Positions 16,590 through 61,190 of a DNA stretch of 64,000 nucleotides are shown in pieces. The DNA lies in NCBI RefSeq assembly GCF_012927305.1, contig NZ_JABBGH010000002.1, positions 434,001 to 498,000 on the forward strand. Direction: 5' to 3'. Positions within the stretch are counted from its first letter, which is position 1, and the number at the start of each line of letters is the position of its first letter. A model generated the notes under the pieces. That model searched no databases. It worked only from the letters and a program-made list of their open reading frames with translations, and was not told the origin of the DNA. A program made the translations under genes and the position numbers. This DNA comes from Hymenobacter polaris (GTDB taxonomy: Bacteria; Bacteroidota; Bacteroidia; Cytophagales; Hymenobacteraceae).

Positions 16590-17573
16590 CTAGGCCGCTA
16601 CCTGCTGTAAGGCCCGCACCAGCGTATTCTGCGCCAGCTCCACCTTGTAGGCATTTTCGCTTTGGGGCCGCGCCCCACGCAGCGCCGCCGCCGCGGCAGC
16701 GCGGAACGTGGCCTCGCTGGCGGGTTGGCCCACCAGAACCTTTTCCGCCTCGCGCGAGCGCCAGGGCTGCGCGCCCACGCCCCCCAGCGCCACCCGGGCG
16801 GCGCGGATGGTACCGCCCTGCACGTCGAGCCCCACGGCGGCCGAGGCCAGGGCGTAGGCGTAGCTGGCCCGCTCACGCACCTTCAAGTAAGTGGACTGGC
16901 GGGCGTGAGCAGCGGCCGGAATCGTCACGGCCACAATTAATTCGCCCGGCTCCAACACCGTTTCCTTCTGCGGGGTCTTGCCCGGTAGCAGGTAAAACTC
17001 GGTGATAGGCACGCGGCGCTGCTTACCCTTTTGGTTTTCCAGCGTCAGCACCGCATCGAGCGCGGCCAGCGCTACCGCCAGGTCGCCGGGGTAGGCGTTG
17101 GCAATGCAACTCTCACTTACTCCTAGGATGGCTAGGTTATGGTTATCGCCGGCGATGGCTGGGCAGCCCGAGCCCGGCACGCGCTTATTACACGGGAAAG
17201 CCGCGTCGCGGAAGTAGCCGCAGCGGGTGCGCTGCAAGAGGTTGCCACCGATGCTAGCCATGTTGCGCAGCTGCGGCGAGGCGGCCAGCAGCAGCGACTG
17301 CGACACGGCCGGGTAGCCCTGCACCACCAGCGGGTGCTCGCCCACATCGCTCATCCGCGCCAGCGCCCCGATGCGCAAGCCCTCGCTCGTCTGCTCGATG
17401 GTGGCCAGCGGCAGGGGGTTGATGTCGATAAGCTGCGGCGGGGCGGCCAGGTTGGACTTCATCAAATCCAGCAGGGTGGTGCCGCCGGCGTAGTAGGCGG
17501 CGGCCGGAGTGTCTTTGTGCAAGGTGGTCGCTTCTTTCGCCGAGGCGGCCTGCACGTAACTAAAATCGTTCAT
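16590..17573 (-). CDS. FAD-binding subunit of molybdenum hydroxylase, PaoB-like (second copy)
   Basis: A 327-residue medium subunit. FAD signatures are YYAGGTTLLDLMK and SIGGNLLQRTRC. Four cysteines (TRC, FPC, GSGC, ESC) sit in a compact insert where PaoB has its extra [4Fe-4S] cluster; the insert is shorter than in the copy at 3405. The C-terminal domain has YLKVRERASYAYALASAAVG. It starts four bases after the stop of the small-subunit gene, so translation is probably coupled. It would be exported as part of the folded complex. Confidence 0.87.
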   Translation of the reverse strand: MNDFSYVQAASAKEATTLHKDTPAAAYYAGGTTLLDLMKSNLAAPPQLIDINPLPLATIEQTSEGLRIGALARMSDVGEHPLVVQGYPAVSQSLLLAASPQLRNMASIGGNLLQRTRCGYFRDAAFPCNKRVPGSGCPAIAGDNHNLAILGVSESCIANAYPGDLAVALAALDAVLTLENQKGKQRRVPITEFYLLPGKTPQKETVLEPGELIVAVTIPAAAHARQSTYLKVRERASYAYALASAAVGLDVQGGTIRAARVALGGVGAQPWRSREAEKVLVGQPASEATFRAAAAAALRGARPQSENAYKVELAQNTLVRALQQVAA

Positions 17574-21300: not shown

Positions 21301-21438
21301 TTTAGAAAGTCATGCAAGTGTAGTTGTCTGTCATGCTGAGCTTGCCGAAGCATCTCTACCACGCCGTCTGAGTAAGCGGTAGAGATGCTTCGGCAAGCTC
21401 AGCATGACGGTTTAGGGGATAAGCGCCTACTTTCTAAA
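21301..21438. repeat. Nested inverted repeat, family A
   Basis: Perfect 31-bp arms (21330-21360 and 21378-21408; GTCATGCTGAGCTTGCC...CTCTACC) around a 17-bp loop. Outside them a second pair, TTTAGAAAGT (21301-21310) and its complement (21429-21438), bounds the element. The core recurs at 48912, 50037, 51541, 54814 and 61031. The remaining sequence to 21557 shows nothing else. Confidence 0.9.
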
Positions 21439-27187: not shown

Positions 27188-28066
27188 ATGAGCTTGCCCC
27201 CTTCCCTCACCCTGCACGCCCACACCGCCGCCCTGGCCCGCGCCCTGCAGGCCACTTACCCCGAGGCCGAAGCCCAGGCCATTGCCGCGCTGGTGCTGGA
27301 AACCCTGCTGGCCCTGACGCCCCTGCAGCGCCGGCTGCAAGCCAGCGTGCCGGTGCCGCCCGCCGTGGCCGCCCGCCTGCCCGCCATCGAGGCGCGCCTG
27401 CTGGCCCACGAGCCGGTGCAGTACGTGCTGGGCGAGGCGCACTTTGCCGATATGGTGCTGGAAGTGACGCCCGCCACCCTCATCCCGCGCCCCGAAACCG
27501 AGGAGCTGGTGCAGCTTATTGCCCAGGCCAACGCGGGCCGGCCGGCCCTGGCGGTGCTCGACGTAGGCACGGGCAGTGGCTGCCTGGCCCTGGGGCTGGC
27601 CCGCGCCCTCACCCGCCCGGCGCGGGTGCTGGCCGTCGATATTTCGGCGGCGGCGCTGGCCGTGGCCGCCCGCAATGCCGCCCGCTACGCCCCGGCCGTG
27701 GAGCTGCAGGAAGTGGATATTCTGCGCGCCGCACCTGCGGGCCTACCACCCCGCACCCTCGATGTGCTGGCCAGCAACCCGCCCTACGTGCGCGCCAGCG
27801 AGCAGCCCCTGATGCGCACCAACGTGCTGGCCTGGGAGCCCGCCACCGCCCTGTTCGTGCCCGACGACGACCCGCTACTCTTTTACCGCCGGCTGGCCCA
27901 GCTCGCGGCCGAGCTGCTGCGCCCCGGCGGCCAGCTGTGGCTGGAAATAAACGAAGTCCTAGGGCCCGAAACGGCCGCCCTACTAGCCCCCGCGCAGTTT
28001 GCCGACGTGGCCGTGCTGCCCGACTTCTTTGGGCGCCCGCGCTTCGTGCGGGCCCAGCGGCGCTGA
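27188..28066 (+). CDS. prmC: Peptide chain release factor N5-glutamine methyltransferase
   Basis: A 292-residue methyltransferase that modifies the GGQ glutamine of release factors. The N-terminal helical domain (LEAL-like start, TPLQRRLQAS, ARLLAHEPVQYVLGEAHFADM) is followed by the SAM fold: LIPRPETEELV, VLDVGTGSGCLALGLA, and the catalytic motif LASNPPYVRASE. ATG 27188 is preferred since it gives the standard start; the frame is open upstream into the ribD intergenic region. CATCTTTG lies nine bases before the ATG, resembling a Bacteroidota -7 element, which would give a nearly leaderless transcript. Confidence 0.93.
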   Translation: MSLPPSLTLHAHTAALARALQATYPEAEAQAIAALVLETLLALTPLQRRLQASVPVPPAVAARLPAIEARLLAHEPVQYVLGEAHFADMVLEVTPATLIPRPETEELVQLIAQANAGRPALAVLDVGTGSGCLALGLARALTRPARVLAVDISAAALAVAARNAARYAPAVELQEVDILRAAPAGLPPRTLDVLASNPPYVRASEQPLMRTNVLAWEPATALFVPDDDPLLFYRRLAQLAAELLRPGGQLWLEINEVLGPETAALLAPAQFADVAVLPDFFGRPRFVRAQRR

Positions 28067-28073
28067 ACTAATG

Positions 28074-28330
28074 CCCTAGAGTGCGCGGCCGGCGCGGGTA
28101 GTTGCCCTGTGCGTTCAACCCCACCCCCGGCCCCTCCCCTCCGAGAGAGGGGAGCCATGGCGGCGCTACCATAAATCGTCAGGCTCCGTGGTGAAGGGCT
28201 ACGGCCGCAAGGCCACCGTCATCGCGGCGCGGTGCCACAGTTTGTCCGGCTCCCCTCTCCCGGAGGGGAGGGGCCGGGGGTGGGGTTGAACGCAGAGGGC
28301 AACTACCCGCGCTAGCCGCGCGCCCTAGGC
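28074..28330. repeat. Very long inverted repeat, family B (nested)
   Basis: Arms of about 80 bp (28074-28156 and 28248-28330) with only a few mismatches, around a 91-bp spacer. The inner part is the C-rich unit CCCACCCCCGGCCCCTCCCC, also present at 30750-30863. The outer part, including CGCGGGTAGTTGCCCT and GCGTTCAACC, is found only here. This fills the gap between prmC and the Old Yellow Enzyme gene; no gene is visible in it. Confidence 0.92.
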
Positions 28331-47914: not shown

Positions 47915-48004
47915 TTTTCCCGCAGAGGGCGCAGTGTTTTCGCAGAGGCCGCGGAGGTTGTTCTCTGCGACTTCTGCGAAAACACTGCGCCTTCTGCGGG
48001 AAAA
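47915..48004. repeat. Inverted repeat inside MoxR operon, family C
   Basis: Arms of 32 bp (47915-47946 and 47973-48004) with one mismatch, based on CCCGCAGAGGGCGCAGTG and CGCAGA, around a 26-bp loop that itself repeats CTCTGCG. It fills the gap between the DUF58 stop and the BatA start, and would form a strong mRNA hairpin within the operon. Confidence 0.9.
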
Positions 48005-50036: not shown

Positions 50037-50133
50037 GTCATGCTGAGCTTGCCGAAGCATCTCTACCGCGTAAGTAACTTCAAACGTTAGGATTAGTGCC
50101 GCAGTAGAGATGCTTCGACAGGCTCAGCATGAC
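50037..50133. repeat. Inverted repeat, family A
   Basis: Arms of 33 bp (50037-50069 and 50101-50133), GTCATGCTGAGCTTGCC... and ...GACAGGCTCAGCATGAC, with few mismatches and a 31-bp loop. It lies between the DUF4159 and MoxR genes; no outer locus-specific arms are seen. Confidence 0.9.
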
Positions 50134-50917: not shown

Positions 50918-51544
50918 ATGAAACGGTTTCTGTTCCTGCTGGTAGCCGGCGCAGCCTGGCTACTCGCTGCCCCCCAGGCCCACGCTCAGTTCGGCGTGAA
51001 AGGCGGCGTCAACTTCGCTGAGCTACAGGGCCGCGACGGCGAGTCGTCGTCCTACAAGACATTCTATCACGTCGGCATCCTCTACCAGTGGAACGTGCTG
51101 GGCCCGCTGGCCATCCAGCCCGAGCTACAATACTCGGTGCAGGGCGGCGACCTAAAAGGTGCCTTTACCGACTACACCACCAAGCTGCACTACTTCACGG
51201 TGCCCGTGCTGGCCAAAGTGACCCTAGGCCCCATTTTCGTGGAAGCCGGCCCGCAGTTCGGCTACTTAGTGCACGCCACCCAGGACGGCAAGGTGCAGAT
51301 AAGCAACACCAACGGCTCGGCCAGCTACGGCCAAGTCAGCCAAACGGCTACCAGCCAGTATAAGGGCGCCGACTTTAGCCTGGCTGCTGGTGCCGGCCTC
51401 AAGTTCAGCGGCCTCTCGCTGGGCGCCCGCTACGTGGCCGGCCTCAACGACATCAACGACGCCCAGTACATCACCGGCCTCAACGACCCGCGCCTGCAAA
51501 ACCGCGTGTTTCAACTCTACGCGGCTCTGCAGTTCGGGAAGTAG
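50918..51544 (+). CDS. PorT-family outer-membrane beta-barrel protein
   Basis: A 208-residue protein with a signal (FLFLLVAGAAWLLAAPQAHAQ). The mature part begins FGVKGGVNFAEL and continues with VGILYQWNVLGPLAIQPELQYSVQGG, TVPVLAKVTLGPIFVEAGPQFGYL and SLGARYVAGLNDIND, ending RVFQLYAALQFGK. This is an eight-stranded barrel of the PorT/OmpW-like class that is very common in Bacteroidota. Function not known. It is transcribed divergently from the DUF4159 operon and converges on the TldE-like gene, with their stop codons lying within one palindrome. Confidence 0.87.
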   Translation: MKRFLFLLVAGAAWLLAAPQAHAQFGVKGGVNFAELQGRDGESSSYKTFYHVGILYQWNVLGPLAIQPELQYSVQGGDLKGAFTDYTTKLHYFTVPVLAKVTLGPIFVEAGPQFGYLVHATQDGKVQISNTNGSASYGQVSQTATSQYKGADFSLAAGAGLKFSGLSLGARYVAGLNDINDAQYITGLNDPRLQNRVFQLYAALQFGK

Positions 51545-51670
51545 AATTTCAATTAGCAAAGGCGCACGTCATGCTGAGCTTGTCGAAGCATCTCTACCGC
51601 GCAACATTGTTCAGTAGAGATGCTTCGACAAGCTCAGCATGACGTGCGCTTTTGCTAATTGAAATTCTAC
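51541..51670. repeat. Large nested palindrome covering two stop codons
   Basis: Arms of 57 bp (51541-51597 and 51614-51670) with one mismatch and a 16-bp loop. The inner 33 bp is the family-A unit; the outer 24 bp (GTAGAATTTCAATTAGCAAA...) is unique to this site. The TAG stops of the barrel gene (51542-51544) and of the TldE-like gene (51667-51669, minus) lie symmetrically in the arms. It probably works as a bidirectional terminator. Confidence 0.93.
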
Positions 51671-53001
51671 ACTGCGTCCGATAGGCTCGTGAACGTGAAG
51701 TCGCGAATCTTTAGCGGGGGAACCAGATTGCCGGCCAGGCGCACCGGGCGGCCGATGGCTTCCACGTTGTTGAGCATGATAACGGGGCTCTCGTTGAAGC
51801 GGAAGTTCTTGATGGGGAACTTGATAGCGCCGTTCTCGATGTAGAACGTACCGTCGCGGGTGAGGCCGGTGTAGAGCAGCGTCTGCGGGTCAACGGGACG
51901 GATGTACCAGAGGCGCGTGACCAAAATTCCTTTCTGGGTGCCTTTGATGAGGTCGGCCGTGCTTTGGGTGCCGCCTTCCATGATGAAGCCGCCGGGCGGG
52001 GGCAGGTCCGGAATGCCGCTCTTCTGGGCCCAGTAGCGGCTGGTGTACATATTCTTCACCACGCCCTTCTCAATCCAGGTGGTGCGCTGCTGCGGGCGGC
52101 CGTCGCCGGCAAAGGTCAGGTCGGGCACCTCGGCGTTGGTAGGGTCCGAGTAAACGGTGATGCGCTCGTCGAACAGCTTTTCGCCTTTGCGGTTGCCGCC
52201 GCCCTTCTTGCTCAGGAAGCTGCGCCCCTCGTCGGCCGAGCGGGCGTCGAACGAGCGCATGAGGGCCCCTAGGAGCGAGGCGTCGGAATTGGAAACCAGA
52301 GCGTTGGGCTCCAGAATAACGGTGTACTTGCCCGGCTCGATGGCCTTGGCGCCCACCGACGATGACGCCTTGCCCGCGGCCACGGCCGTGAGGCGCGCCG
52401 CGTCGAAGTTCTTCACGTCGGTGTAGTCGGTGGCCGCGTAACCCGAGCCCGTGCCGTCGGGCGTGCGCACCGTAACGCTGAAGTCGGCGTTGGTCAGGCG
52501 CTGGTAGGCTTCCAGGCCCTTGCTGTTGCGCTTGGCTACGAAGCCCGCCCGGTCGTTAAGAAAGCCCGCCGAGGTGAGCTTCTTGCTGGTGCAGTAGTCC
52601 ATGCTGGCCCCCATTTGGCGGGCGCGGTAGTCGGGCGTAATGGCGGCCGTGCTCTGGGCAAACGACTGCGGCGAGCTGAGGTACTGCTGCGGCCCGAGCA
52701 GCGGCATGTGCTCGGGGCTATCGGGGGCCAGGCGCGCAATTTCTTCGGCCCGCTGCACGCAGCGCTTCAGGGTAGCGTCGTCGAACTGGTTGCAGGTGGC
52801 GGTGCCCTGCTTCTTGCCGAAGTACGAGGTAACGGCCAGCGACACGTTGTCGGTGGCGCCCGAGGTGCTGATGGAGTTGCGCGCCGAGCGCACGTTGCCT
52901 TCCAGCGTGCCGCTCAGGGTAGCCTCGCACTCATCGGCGGTGCTGTAGCCAATGACCTTCTTGAGAATGTCCTGGGCTTCGGTTTGGGAAAGTATTGCCA
53001 T
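51667..53001 (-). CDS. TldE/PmbA-like subunit of TldD/TldE protease
   Basis: A 444-residue protein of the PmbA_TldD family, in the TldE position (no HExxxH zinc motif). Marks are LKKVIGYSTADECEATLSG at the start, TRNSISTSGATDN-like residues, and the C-terminal domain GFIMEGGTQSTADLIKGTQKGILVTRLWY, DPQTLLYTGLTRDGTFYIENG, and NFRFNESPVIMLNNVEAIG. TldD and TldE form a heterodimer that cleaves unstructured peptides or matures peptide natural products. It follows the two TldD genes on the same strand. No signal peptide is visible, unlike the TldD copies. Confidence 0.88.
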   Translation of the reverse strand: MAILSQTEAQDILKKVIGYSTADECEATLSGTLEGNVRSARNSISTSGATDNVSLAVTSYFGKKQGTATCNQFDDATLKRCVQRAEEIARLAPDSPEHMPLLGPQQYLSSPQSFAQSTAAITPDYRARQMGASMDYCTSKKLTSAGFLNDRAGFVAKRNSKGLEAYQRLTNADFSVTVRTPDGTGSGYAATDYTDVKNFDAARLTAVAAGKASSSVGAKAIEPGKYTVILEPNALVSNSDASLLGALMRSFDARSADEGRSFLSKKGGGNRKGEKLFDERITVYSDPTNAEVPDLTFAGDGRPQQRTTWIEKGVVKNMYTSRYWAQKSGIPDLPPPGGFIMEGGTQSTADLIKGTQKGILVTRLWYIRPVDPQTLLYTGLTRDGTFYIENGAIKFPIKNFRFNESPVIMLNNVEAIGRPVRLAGNLVPPLKIRDFTFTSLSDAV

Positions 53002-53020
53002 TGGTAGGTGAAATTAAGAT

Positions 53021-53119
53021 GTAGCACCAAGCTCCTGCTTGGTGAGCCGCCCGCGCCGTAAGGCAGTAAAATGGGTTAGTTATCGCTCAACGATGCCCCA
53101 AGCGGGAGCTTGGGGTTAC
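53021..53119. repeat. Inverted repeat, family D
   Basis: GTAGCACCAAGCTCCTGCTTGG (53021-53042) and CCAAGCGGGAGCTTGGGGTTAC (53097-53118) are complementary with several mismatches. Each arm is itself partly palindromic (CCAAGC...GCTTGG). It lies between tldE and the first tldD, partly inside the end of the latter. Confidence 0.75.
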
Positions 53120-54768
53120 CCGATTTTGCGGGCCGTATTAATCACATTCACCGCGTTGAAGCGGGTGGTGGCCGAGCCGTGGCTCACGGCCGAGCTTTGC
53201 GAGGGCTGGCCCTTGCCGTCGTTGAAGGCGCCAAACAGACGGTAGTCGCGCTCATCGCAGCGGTCGGCGCACGAGCCCCAGAACTCCAGCGTGTTGGCCT
53301 GGTAGGCCACGTCTTCGAGGGGCTCGGTAATCTTGCCCTTCTCGATGGCGTAGAACACCTGCCCGCCAAACTGGAAGTTGTAGCGCTGCTGGTCGATGCT
53401 GAACGAGCCGTTGCCCGCGATGTAGATGCCCTTGTCCACGCCAGCCACCAGCTCATCCACGCTCTTATTGGTGGTGCCGGGGCGCAAGCTCACGTTGGGC
53501 ATGCGCTGAAACTGCACGTCCTGCCACGACTGCGAGTAGCAGCAGCCATCCGAATACTGCTGGCCCACGATGTGGGCCTGGTCGCGAATCTTCTCGTAGT
53601 TCACCAGCTTGCCGGCCTTTATCAGGTCCCACTCCTTAGTTTTTACGCCCTCGTCGTCGTAGCCCACGGCCCCTAGGGAGCCCGTCTGCAGCTTGTCGGC
53701 CACGATGTTAACCTGCTGCGAGCCGTAGGGAATGTTCTTGGCTTTCCAGGCCAGGGTGGCGAAGCTGGTGCCGGCGTAGTTGGCCTCGTAGCCTAGCACG
53801 CGGTCCAGCTCCAACGGGTGGCCCACGCTTTCGTGGATGGTCAGGCCCAGGTGGTGGGGGTCGAGCACCAGGTCGTACTTGCCGGGCGTCACGCTCTTGC
53901 AGGTAATCTTCTGCTTGGTTTGCTTGGCGGCCAGGGCGGCATCTTCCAAAATGTCGTAGCTCTGCTTGTAGCCAATCACGTCGGAGCCGGCCGGGCCCAT
54001 CACCTTATCGGCGGCCTTGGGCGTCAGGTACTCGTAGCCCAGGCCCATGGGCGAGCTCATGGCCTGCCGCGAGCGAAACTTACCGCTGGCGCGGTCCACC
54101 ACCGTCACGCCAAACGTGGGGTAGATGCGGTGGATGTCCTGGTCGATGTACGAGCCATCGGTGCTGGCGAAGTACTTCTGCTCGTTGATTTGGAACAGCG
54201 CCGAATTGACGAACGATGCGCCGCCCGCCAGCGCTACGCCGTTGGCATTCAGCAGCAAGTCCACCTTTTCCTTGATGGGCACCTCGAAGGCGTTTTGCTG
54301 AATGGGCGTTTTCCAGCTCACCTCGCCGTAGCCTTTTTGCGGGGCCAGCTGCACGGGCTCCTTCTGCACCTTCGAGTTGGCCTTGGCAATGGCTACCGCC
54401 TGCTGGGCGGTTTTGGCCACGCTGGCGTCGGTCAGGTTGTTGGTAGCCGCGAAGCCCCAGGTGCCGCCCGCAATCACCCGGATGCCGATGCCCTGGGTTT
54501 CGGCGCTGGCAATGTTCTGCACCTGCTTCTCGCGGGTGAAGATGCCCTGGTTGAGCGTGCGCTGAATGCGGATGTCGGCGTAGGTGGCGCCGGCCGCCTT
54601 GGCCGCGTTCAGGGCCACGTCGGCCAGGCGCTTTTTCTGGGCCACGTCCAGGCCCGGCTCCAGCAGCTGGGCGGGGTCTACGAGGTCGCCGGCCAGGGCT
54701 GGGAAGCTAGGCAGCCACAGCGCCCCGGCCCCTAGGCCCGCAAGGGCGGCAAAGTCACGTCTTTTCAC
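53116..54768 (-). CDS. tldD: TldD-like metalloprotease with Tat-like signal (copy 1)
   Basis: A 550-residue protein. The zinc motif HESVGH lies at residues 312-317 in LGLTIHESVGHPLELDR. Other TldD marks are VTVVDRASGKFRSR and AHIVGQQYSDGCCYSQSWQ with the FGGQVFYAIEKGKITEPL block. The N-terminus MKRRDFAALAGLGAGALWL has a twin-arginine (RRDF) followed by a hydrophobic stretch and then a DPAQLLEPGL start of the mature domain, so export by Tat is likely. TldD of E. coli is cytoplasmic, so this is unusual. Close paralogue of 54922-56622. Confidence 0.9.
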   Translation of the reverse strand: MKRRDFAALAGLGAGALWLPSFPALAGDLVDPAQLLEPGLDVAQKKRLADVALNAAKAAGATYADIRIQRTLNQGIFTREKQVQNIASAETQGIGIRVIAGGTWGFAATNNLTDASVAKTAQQAVAIAKANSKVQKEPVQLAPQKGYGEVSWKTPIQQNAFEVPIKEKVDLLLNANGVALAGGASFVNSALFQINEQKYFASTDGSYIDQDIHRIYPTFGVTVVDRASGKFRSRQAMSSPMGLGYEYLTPKAADKVMGPAGSDVIGYKQSYDILEDAALAAKQTKQKITCKSVTPGKYDLVLDPHHLGLTIHESVGHPLELDRVLGYEANYAGTSFATLAWKAKNIPYGSQQVNIVADKLQTGSLGAVGYDDEGVKTKEWDLIKAGKLVNYEKIRDQAHIVGQQYSDGCCYSQSWQDVQFQRMPNVSLRPGTTNKSVDELVAGVDKGIYIAGNGSFSIDQQRYNFQFGGQVFYAIEKGKITEPLEDVAYQANTLEFWGSCADRCDERDYRLFGAFNDGKGQPSQSSAVSHGSATTRFNAVNVINTARKIG

Positions 54769-54813
54769 AGGTTGAAGGGTTTGATTAGAAAAGGTTACTT
54801 ATTGAAAATGAAC

Positions 54814-54902
54814 GTCATGCTGAGTTTTTCGAAGCATCTTTACTGCTTCGTTGCAACGGCTCAAAAGAAGCGGTAGAGATGCTTCGACAAGCTCAGCATG
54901 AC
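54814..54902. repeat. Inverted repeat, family A (degenerate left arm)
   Basis: GTCATGCTGAGTTTTTCGAAGC... at 54814 and the complementary ...GCTTCGACAAGCTCAGCATGAC ending 54902. The left arm has TTTTT where other copies have CTTGC. It lies between the two tldD genes. Confidence 0.85.
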
Positions 54903-54921
54903 CGCCTTTTGGCATGGGTGC

Positions 54922-56622
54922 CTACCCAATCTTGCGGGCCGTGTTAATCACGTTTACCGCATTGAAGCGGGCGGTGCTGCTGCCGTGGCTCACGGCCGAC
55001 ACCTGCGAAGGCTGGCCCTTGCCGTCGAAAAACGAGCCGAACAGGCGGTAATCGCGCGCATCGCACACGGCGGCGCACGAGTTCCAGAACTCCTGGGTGT
55101 TGGCCTGGTAGGCCACGTCGTCCAGCATTTCGGTAATCTTGCCGTTCTCGATGGCGTAGAATACCTGCCCGCCAAACTGGAAGTTATAGCGCTGCGGGTC
55201 AATAGAATACGAGCCGCGCCCGGCAATGTAGATGCCCTTGCTCACGCCCTTAATCAGCTCATCCACCCCTAGGGGCTGGGAGCCCGGCTGCAGGCTCACG
55301 TTGGGCATGCGCTGAAACTGCACCGCGTCCCAGGAGTCGGCGTAGCAGCAGCCGTCGCTGGCTTGCTGGCCCACGATGTGCGCCTGGTCGCGAATCTTCT
55401 CGTAATCCACCAGCTTGCCCTGGTCAATGAGCGTCCACTCCTTGGTTTTCACGCCCTCGTCGTCGTAGCCCACCGCGCCCAGGCTGCCGGGCTGCAGCTT
55501 GTCGGCCACTATCGTCACCTGCTTCGAGCCGTAGGGGATGTTCTTGGCCTTCCACTCCTGCGTGGCGAAGCTGGTGCCGGCGTAGTTGGCCTCGTAGCCC
55601 AGCACGCGGTCCAGCTCCAGGGGGTGGCCCACGCTTTCGTGAATGGTCAGGCCCAGGTGGTTAGGCTCCAGCACCAGGTCGTACTTGCCGGCGGTTACGC
55701 TCTTGGCGCCCATCTTTTGCTTGGCCTGCTGGGCGGCCAGAGCGGCGTCTTCCAAGATGTCGTAGCTCATTTTATAGCCCACCAGGCCGGTGCCGGCGGG
55801 GCCCGCAATCTTGTCGGCGGCCCTAGGGGTCAGGTACTCGTAGCCCAGGCCCATGGGGGCGCTTAGCGCGTCGCGGGTCTTGAACTTGCCCGCCGCCCGG
55901 TCCACCACCGTGGCCGTAAATGTGGGCCAGATGCGGTGAATATCCTGGTCGATGTACGAGCCGTCGGTGCTGGCGAAGTACTTCTGCTCGTTGATTTGGA
56001 ACAGGCTGCTGCTCATGAAGCTGGCGCCGTTGGCGGCGGCCGCGGCGTTGGTGGCCAGCAGCAAGTCCACTTTTTCCTTCACTGGCACCTCAAAGGCGTT
56101 GCGTACGATGGGCGTTTTCCAGCTCACCTCACCGTAGCCCTTTTGCGGAGCCAGCTGCACGGGCTCTTTCTGGATGCGGGCGTTGGCTTTGGCCATGGCC
56201 ACGGCGCGCTGGGCGGTGCGGGCTAGGCTGGCGTCGGTCACGTCGTTGGTGGCCGCGAAGCCCCAAGTGCCCTGGGCAATGACCCGGATGCCGGCCCCGA
56301 AGCTCTCGCCGCTGGCAATGTTCTGCACCTGCTTCTCGCGGGTAAACACGCTTTGGTTGAGGTAGCGGCCGATGCGCACGTCGGCGTAGGTGGCGCCGGC
56401 ACTTTTGGCCGCGTTCAGGGCGGCGTCGGCCAGGCGCTTTTTTTGGGCCACGTCCAGGCCGGGCTCTAGCAGGCGGGCGGGGTCTACGGGCAGGCTGCCA
56501 CCCAGGCCGGGCAGGCTCGGCAGCAGTAGGGCGCCGGCGCCTAGGCCGGTAAGGGTACTAAAGTCGCGTCGGTTCAAAGCAGGCAGGGGAGTTGTAGAAG
56601 CAAGGACAAAGCGGGTAGCCAA
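54922..56622 (-). CDS. tldD: TldD-like metalloprotease with Tat-like signal (copy 2)
   Basis: A 566-residue paralogue of 53116-54768, very similar over most of its length. The zinc motif HESVGH sits in LGLTIHESVGHPLELDR, and the same FGGQVFYAIENGKIT and YQANTQEFWNSC blocks follow. The N-terminus is longer: NRRDFSTLTGLGAGALLL begins near residue 17, again a twin-arginine followed by a hydrophobic stretch. Differences cluster in the loop with ATNAAAAANGASF and in the C-terminal part. It is the first gene of the tldD-tldD-tldE group. Two TldD copies with one TldE suggests two alternative heterodimers. Confidence 0.9.
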   Translation of the reverse strand: MATRFVLASTTPLPALNRRDFSTLTGLGAGALLLPSLPGLGGSLPVDPARLLEPGLDVAQKKRLADAALNAAKSAGATYADVRIGRYLNQSVFTREKQVQNIASGESFGAGIRVIAQGTWGFAATNDVTDASLARTAQRAVAMAKANARIQKEPVQLAPQKGYGEVSWKTPIVRNAFEVPVKEKVDLLLATNAAAAANGASFMSSSLFQINEQKYFASTDGSYIDQDIHRIWPTFTATVVDRAAGKFKTRDALSAPMGLGYEYLTPRAADKIAGPAGTGLVGYKMSYDILEDAALAAQQAKQKMGAKSVTAGKYDLVLEPNHLGLTIHESVGHPLELDRVLGYEANYAGTSFATQEWKAKNIPYGSKQVTIVADKLQPGSLGAVGYDDEGVKTKEWTLIDQGKLVDYEKIRDQAHIVGQQASDGCCYADSWDAVQFQRMPNVSLQPGSQPLGVDELIKGVSKGIYIAGRGSYSIDPQRYNFQFGGQVFYAIENGKITEMLDDVAYQANTQEFWNSCAAVCDARDYRLFGSFFDGKGQPSQVSAVSHGSSTARFNAVNVINTARKIG

Positions 56623-59872: not shown

Positions 59873-59993
59873 GCCCGAAAGTTTATTATCCCAACCTGGC
59901 GGCAGCCGCCCCCAACCCCCGCCGGGCGCGGACGACCCTAGGGGGTGGGCTTGGTGTAAAGCCGAGCCCGGTTGGGATAATAAATTTTTCGGC
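59873..59993. repeat. Inverted repeat between divergent genes
   Basis: TTTATTATCCCAACC (59882-59896) and its complement (59970-59984) are perfect, and CCGAAA/TTTTCGG extends the similarity outward. The loop is GC-rich and 73 bp long. It lies between divergent genes 59818 (minus) and 60043 (plus), so both would read the same arm sequence upstream. Confidence 0.75.
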
Positions 59994-60930: not shown

Positions 60931-61030
60931 GCCCTAGGGTATCGAGCAAGTAGTTAAAGGTGCCTGGCTAACGGGCTACCAAGAATTATTTACCCACCTA
61001 GCCCACTCGTCTATAAGTACTCATGCACAA

Positions 61031-61163
61031 GTAAACAGGCAGTGTAAACAGGCGGTCATGCTGAGCTTGCCGAAGCATCTTGGCTGGCAGTCCCGCCCCG
61101 GACGAAGCGGTAGAGATGCTTCGACAGGCTCAGCATGACCGCCTGCTTACACTGCCTGTTTAC
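61031..61163. repeat. Nested inverted repeat, family A
   Basis: Arms of 50 bp (61031-61080 and 61114-61163) with three mismatches and a 33-bp loop. The inner part is the family-A unit; the outer part, GTAAACAGGCAGTGTAAACA, is unique to this site and is itself a near-direct repeat. It lies between the convergent DUF5694 gene and the nuclease gene. Confidence 0.92.
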
Positions 61164-61190
61164 TCAATACAAGTAGCTACCTACTCACGC

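Follow-up and report, generated by a model that had tools for sequence, protein, structure and literature searches.

The window analysed here, a stretch of 64,000 nucleotides from the Hymenobacter polaris genome, contains two convergent genes that both end within the arms of one long palindrome. The forward strand carries a gene for an outer-membrane beta-barrel protein (50918-51544; PF13568 and PF13505), of which the TAG stop codon (51542-51544) lies inside the left arm, and the reverse strand carries a gene for a PmbA/TldD-type metallopeptidase (51667-53001; PF19289 and PF01523), of which the TAG stop codon (51667-51669) lies inside the right arm; the entire 122-bp spacer is therefore palindromic. 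The two arms (51541-51604 and 51607-51670) comprise 64 nt each, are 94% complementary, and are separated by a gap of 2 nt. From left to right, the structure consists of a left outer, locus-specific arm (51541-51567, forward strand), the left arm of a repeated core designated family A (51568-51597, forward strand; GTCATGCTGAGCTTGTCGAAGCATCTCTAC), a central loop without assigned strand that separates the best-paired arms (51598-51613), the right arm of the core (51614-51643, reverse strand), and a right outer arm (51644-51670, reverse strand) that mirrors the left outer arm with one mismatch in 27 nt. Family A represents the middle 76 bp of the palindrome (51568-51643), and each outer arm is composed of 23 nt plus the GTAG that is common to both gene ends.

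An earlier note on this DNA had described a core nested in longer, near-perfectly inverted arms that include the stops of both convergent genes and of which the outer parts occur nowhere else in the window. All of this was confirmed, and the last statement could be extended to the whole genome, in which the outer arm, allowing up to 3 mismatches, matched these two places alone. At the same tolerance the arm was detected in 1 of 120 genomes of the genus, i.e., H. polaris itself, and was absent from the other 119 genomes searched. The possibility that the outer arms are part of a longer standard repeat was rejected on the basis of this uniqueness in the genome and in the 120-genome search. The focal palindrome is a compound structure, in which a repeated core is enclosed by outer arms that are foreign to that repeat. 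As RNA, it is predicted to fold at -108.3 kcal/mol (z -20), which is extreme for its composition and was equalled by 0 of 200 shuffled sequences. A scan of 51400-51800 for intrinsic terminators, which admits only loops of 3-8 nt and runs of at least 5 T, returned 0 matches; at this locus TTTT follows the GCGCAC/GTGCGC step.

Family A had been reported to recur at six sites of the window; instead, ten core arms were found with up to 2 mismatches (0.11 expected), which constitute five paired copies. Besides the focal copy, these include a second extended copy at 61030-61164, with 25-nt mirrored arms (61030-61054 and 61140-61164, one mismatch) around a core at 61055-61139, a copy at 21330-21408 that lacks long mirrored flanks adjoining its core, and two copies without mirrored flanks at 50037-50133 and 54814-54902, the latter having 2 mismatches in the first 15 bases of one arm. 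Throughout the genome, 316 and 308 family-A arms were detected with up to 3 mismatches, and the reversed pattern was found 0 times. A set of 85 paired copies was assembled from the window and from 80 stretches fetched around listed family-A places, which form part of all matches. This is a selected sample in which the listed places are exact matches, and core identity is therefore of little use as a guide to age. All 85 copies are inverted pairs with GTC pointing outward, i.e., head-to-head dimers, and 5 unpaired arms were left out of the set. Among the 170 arms, GTC was preceded by C 110 times, by G 54 times, by T 4 times, and by A twice; beyond the core, an A-rich step leads to a G, a pair of variable bases, and then C or G. 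The left and right 4-mers adjoining the core were identical in 66 of the 85 copies (19 expected), and the core-adjacent bases are alike in extended and plain copies.

The core of family A is not new, as the first hairpin of the Rfam model RF02901 (AaHKsRNA41; 59.4 bits, E 5.8e-13) follows it nearly base for base. This likeness is real despite a score that does not reach the gathering cut-off of 97, and the outer arms lie outside the sequence match to the model. RF02901 describes an sRNA named from Aggregatibacter, and the basis of this model may be a palindromic repeat that is widespread. The other Rfam matches (ten in all, each below its gathering score) were set aside as chance hairpins by appearance.

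Among known systems, family A can be compared with the CGTC-tagged REPs (Di Nocera, 2013; PMC3733652), which the accessible part of that article describes as multicopy inverted pairs that point GTC outward and lie for the most part at gene ends, for which no dedicated transposase is known, and for which Bacteroidetes are among the phyla listed. Their traits, as given there, are a terminal CGTC (or TGTC or CCTC), an 8-9 bp stem starting with AT in each repeat, and a predominance of head-to-head dimers. Family A shares the inverted, GTC-outward pairing at gene ends, and some of the CGTC-tagged dimers likewise lie inside longer palindromes; according to the same part of the source, however, those palindromes have a family consensus, whereas the outer arms found here vary from locus to locus. 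Moreover, the 8-9 bp single-repeat stem is not matched by the fold of a family-A arm, which as single DNA is weak and different (-2.5 kcal/mol, z -0.3), with ATGCT...AGCAT as the sole stem seen by eye. Family A also resembles the REPINs (Bertels and Rainey, 2011; PMC3116915) in being an inverted doublet that forms a hairpin; in REPINs, as far as the available text of that article goes, the REP flanks the RAYT gene, whereas family A is missing from the flanks of the RAYT-like genes in H. polaris.

Mirrored flanks are not restricted to the focal copy. Starting at the core, the complementarity of the flanks was scored in the outward direction, with +1 per match and -2 per mismatch, and compared with 1000 re-pairings of left and right flanks. 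Extension scores of at least 15 were obtained for 18 of the 85 family-A copies, and of at least 20 for 12, with extensions up to 31 nt long; none of the 1000 re-pairings reached 15, the highest re-paired score being 14. The data revealed that mirrored flanks are a genome-wide pattern in H. polaris, far above chance, and that the focal architecture is not unique in this genome. Extended copies were more frequent at convergent sites than at other sites (13 of 37 versus 5 of 48; Fisher p 0.0076, on a crude reading-frame call), and another locus (L087) has, by inspection, the same stop codon in both arms, like the focal one. Many extensions stop sharply. In 18 copies seeded by six perfect bases past the 4-mer step, 16 of which are also in the set scoring at least 15, the extensions past the seed contained 13 mismatches in 164 positions (6 of the 13 in one copy) versus 2.2% in the cores of the same copies, which suits arms that are older than the core.

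The same architecture was encountered in a palindrome family unrelated to family A, characterized by CCCCACCCCCGGCCCC, of which a copy in the window (28075-28329) has 44-nt outer arms (28075-28118 and 28286-28329) with 5 mismatches. Among its 18 distinct copies, obtained by retrieval of 30 loci for 47 matched arms, extensions with a score of at least 16 were present in 6 (re-paired maximum 8). By eye, these extensions have a degenerate motif in common, and the outer arm of this family may therefore partly be a longer version of the repeat that varies symmetrically from copy to copy. Uniqueness of the outer arms also fails for two extended family-A copies (L107 and L138), which have in common a tail type, TAAATGAGTAGATGAGTA, that recurs in the genome (17 + 21 matches, versus 10 + 11 for the reversed pattern). 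Outer arms of this type surround GC-rich centres at L313 (45 nt, perfect) and L320 (43 nt, 3 mismatches), and cut-down family-A cores at L310 and L334 (47 nt, perfect at the latter); some outer arms therefore exist without an intact mobile core. As a separate observation, the degenerate TAAATGAGTAGATGAGTA tail (L305-L334) is located near gene ends, contains stops in all three frames, and is sometimes mirrored around differing centres. Finally, a control with 106 GTCAT-type palindromes from stretches of nine other genomes of the genus gave a much weaker signal, with 3 palindromes at a score of 15 (re-paired mean 0.17, maximum 2) and 9 at a score of 10 (re-paired mean 0.23, maximum 3), and long extensions are largely a feature of the H. 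polaris genome.

At the focal gene pair, 30 loci with the beta-barrel gene were collected across the genus (H. polaris included), of which 29 have a convergent PmbA-type partner in the fetched stretches; in the thirtieth (L042) the partner gene is missing from the fetched stretch. A palindrome with a score of at least 12 was present in 27 of the 29 convergent-pair loci, many of them unrelated in sequence; at L057 the spacer measures 796 bp, and the palindrome is distant from the beta-barrel gene. Among relatives that have this gene pair, the nearest (G014 and G122) carry quite different palindromes there. Concerning the partner and its PmbA/TldD cluster (51667-56578), the H. polaris genome has one PmbA-type match, compared with two or more in 32 of 36 other genomes of the genus in that search, and the beta-barrel gene therefore faces the other paralogue here.

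Palindrome evolution was followed in three species pairs (identity 88.0%, 92.6%, and 93.4%; roughly 200 kb per pair) and in one trio. Paired changes of the arms were counted in two pairs, G021/G033 (592 base pairs, 21 sites) and G035/G003 (337 base pairs, 14 sites), in which 21 of 25 (G021), 16 of 23 (G033), 14 of 18 (G035), and 15 of 20 (G003) mapped palindromes were judged orthologous. Double compensated changes numbered 28, 27, 7, and 6 for G021, G033, G035, and G003, respectively, against 1.8, 1.6, 0.9, and 1.1 expected under independence, counts for which the orthology filter favours paired changes, two sites hold 15 of the 28, and both directions of a pair count largely identical sites. 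Most changed pairs were altered on a single side (53, 35, 43, and 37, with G-U included), and the unpaired double changes came to 2, 2, 2, and 9, in the same order. Palindrome arms evolve together in part, with paired changes above independence. At places with a palindrome in both members of a pair, the two were classed as the same in 11, 8, and 13 cases, as different in 5, 1, and 4, and as ambiguous in 2, 1, and 2 for the three pairs; 7, 8, and 6 further places have a palindrome in the first species alone. At least two of the cases classed as different are concerted divergence and true swaps are fewer, several of them plain (e.g., G121 at 102076 and 154365).

Individual loci allow a closer view of how flanks change. 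In the pair G121/G105, both species have the same element and the same right flank at one place, and by eye the left flank of G121, CTAATTAGCAC, mirrors the right flank apart from a slip of 4 nt. On the left side, G105 is closer to G077 and G080 than G121 is (by eye; twelve loci shown, with flanks that mostly cannot be aligned), and the case amounts to 7-8 new mirrored bases, as the core-adjacent GCAC occurs in G077 and G080 too. This suggests that one flank was mirrored in one species, with the outgroup sequences pointing to the direction. A similar relation is seen by eye, with no outgroup, in G033 (17230-17330), where the left flank equals the mirror of the right flank and does not do so in G021. 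The earlier note had regarded a relative's empty site that already carries both outer arms as evidence against its reading, and here the outcome was mixed. A family-A element of G012 has 14-nt arms (one mismatch; about 8 nt past the common end of its subfamily), and the same place in G113 and G092 has a plain GC hairpin in which the arms of G012 are absent. At a nested site in the pair G035/G003, in contrast, G003 has the outer arms without the inner TGTCATTGCGAG repeat of G035, as judged by eye and for a related element. Two further candidates were not decisive: the G012 site at 93545 has an element-free counterpart in G113 with one arm only and is ambiguous in direction (G092 and G071 have about 740 bp there, probably a gene), and a symmetric 20-nt difference in G121/G105 at 27399 is, by eye, better read as two separate deletions.

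The earlier note had also proposed a search for a REP-associated tyrosine transposase. The NCBIfam profile NF047646 identified two RAYT-like ORFs in H. polaris (47.4 and 49.4 bits), below its cut-off of 80, whereas PF01797 had no match in the H. polaris genome, compared with matches in 25 of the 35 genomes searched (10 without), and direct Pfam scans of both ORFs gave no Y1_Tnp match. One of the ORFs (L336, 1267-1824; on contig C1 of G000 at about 26.7-27.3 kb) contains DHLHGL and has a GTAG-tagged repeat, TGTAGAGACGCATCCTTGCGTCTC, on either side; with up to 2 mismatches, this repeat was matched at 5 places of the genome, 3 of which belong to that locus. The family-A core was not found in the 3.3 kb around either gene (L335 and L336), the best alignment having 10 mismatches in 25. 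The nearest of the listed family-A arms (C3:321708) lies about 2.7 kb from the other ORF (L335, 324432). By eye, GTAGAGATGC at the inner end of family A is similar to GTAGAGACGC, the repeat that adjoins the DHLHGL gene; this likeness is a lead only.

Taken together, the outer arms of the focal palindrome may have been made when one flank was copied locally, in inverted order, onto the other through template switching at the hairpin, an explanation that we favour tentatively, at close to an even chance. At the centre of the palindrome lies an inverted pair of short repeats of which the genome has several hundred copies. A strand that stalls at this hairpin in the course of replication or repair would fold back or switch template and copy one flank onto the other side, so that local DNA would be present twice in mirror order, and it would return where the sequences match, which at the focal locus could plausibly be the GTAG found at both gene ends. 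The same copying would help to keep the arms of a palindrome alike. Between convergent genes it would be tolerated and probably kept, because promoters are absent on both sides and a hairpin with mirror symmetry can act as the 3' end of either gene. The earlier suggestion of a process that makes or copies palindromes together with neighbouring DNA is supported by the genome-wide mirrored flanks, the second family, and the G121/G105 case, and is not supported with respect to its RAYT part. A wider version, in which hairpins at convergent ends of this genome regularly copy flank and stop codon, unrelated genes come to share a mirrored tail, and palindromes act as seeds in a slot that is rebuilt or swapped between species, appears somewhat unlikely.

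Inverted copying explains much of the pattern, and nested insertion is a serious rival that seems to occur as well. In that scenario, which is distinctly possible for the focal locus, the mobile repeat entered the centre of an older locus-specific palindrome, probably a two-way 3' hairpin, and the outer arms are the old stem, which was made earlier by another process, possibly the same template switching. It would account for the nested site in G035/G003, for the presence of one outer-arm type around other centres in this genome (e.g., L313, with its 45-nt perfect arms and GC-rich centre), for extensions that are more diverged than the cores, and for the enrichment of extended copies between convergent genes, and it has a precedent in the REP dimers within longer palindromes of A. 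variabilis and H. neapolitanus that are reported in the accessible part of PMC3733652. However, the core-adjacent bases are the same in extended and plain copies, so about one fifth of the insertions would have had to strike the exact centre of a palindrome, and neither the G012 family-A site, at which two empty relatives lack the arms, nor the G121/G105 case fits such a history. For the focal arms, copying would seem a somewhat better candidate than nested insertion.

Selection alone, in which mutations that restore pairing are kept since both genes need a strong shared 3' hairpin, appears improbable. The 27 of 29 convergent-pair loci with palindromes of many unrelated sequences and the convergent-site bias of the extensions agree with it, but the mirroring runs past the A/T step into the stop codons, beyond what termination would presumably need, and many extensions have sharp ends. 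Inversion of the flank by the element's own transposition, e.g., in a single-strand reaction of the RAYT type with fill-in through the hairpin, is very improbable, even though two RAYT-like ORFs are present, one of them with DHLHGL, a listed family-A arm lies about 2.7 kb from the other, and the inner end of family A resembles, by eye, the repeat beside the DHLHGL gene. That repeat has only 5 genome matches, 3 of them at its own locus, the family-A core does not occur within the 3.3 kb around either gene, and mirrored flanks are found in an unrelated family as well. RAYT as the direct cause was rejected, as the core is absent beside both genes and L336 is flanked by another, near-absent repeat, and the claim of a RAYT-like transposase acting on family A was not upheld.

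The mechanism of local inverted copying itself is already known as template switching (PMC8794818, PMC6649704), and REP dimers inside palindromes have been noted before (PMC3733652), as the accessible parts of these articles attest. In template-switch hairpins (Monttinen and Loytynoja, 2022; PMC8794818) and in quasipalindrome correction, copying of arm onto arm makes or repairs perfect stems, as would be the case here; the available text of that article describes such hairpins in RNA genes, whereas the present structures surround mobile palindromes of a bacterium, are located at gene ends, and include stop codons in their arms. The coding palindromes of Nematomorpha mitochondria (PMC6649704), for which template switching is one proposed mechanism, likewise have perfect, concerted arms but, in the portion of the article available, concern animal mitochondrial coding DNA without a mobile centre. 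No description of the locus-specific outer-arm form was found in the open-access literature searched. Should hairpins often give rise to inverted copying, mobile palindromes would rewrite the adjoining DNA rather than being passive passengers, and convergent genes may acquire shared 3' ends from them. Frequent copying would also help to explain the origin and upkeep of long perfect stems, and would provide many marked natural loci for the measurement of template switching in a bacterium.

The window contains further symmetrical sequences. Two more long inverted repeats, at 47915-48004 and 59873-59993, have no family-A core. The palindromic octamer CCCTAGGG occurs 31 times (3856 to 62070), against 1.8 expected, and is similar in this respect to the over-represented octamers that are known in some other bacteria.
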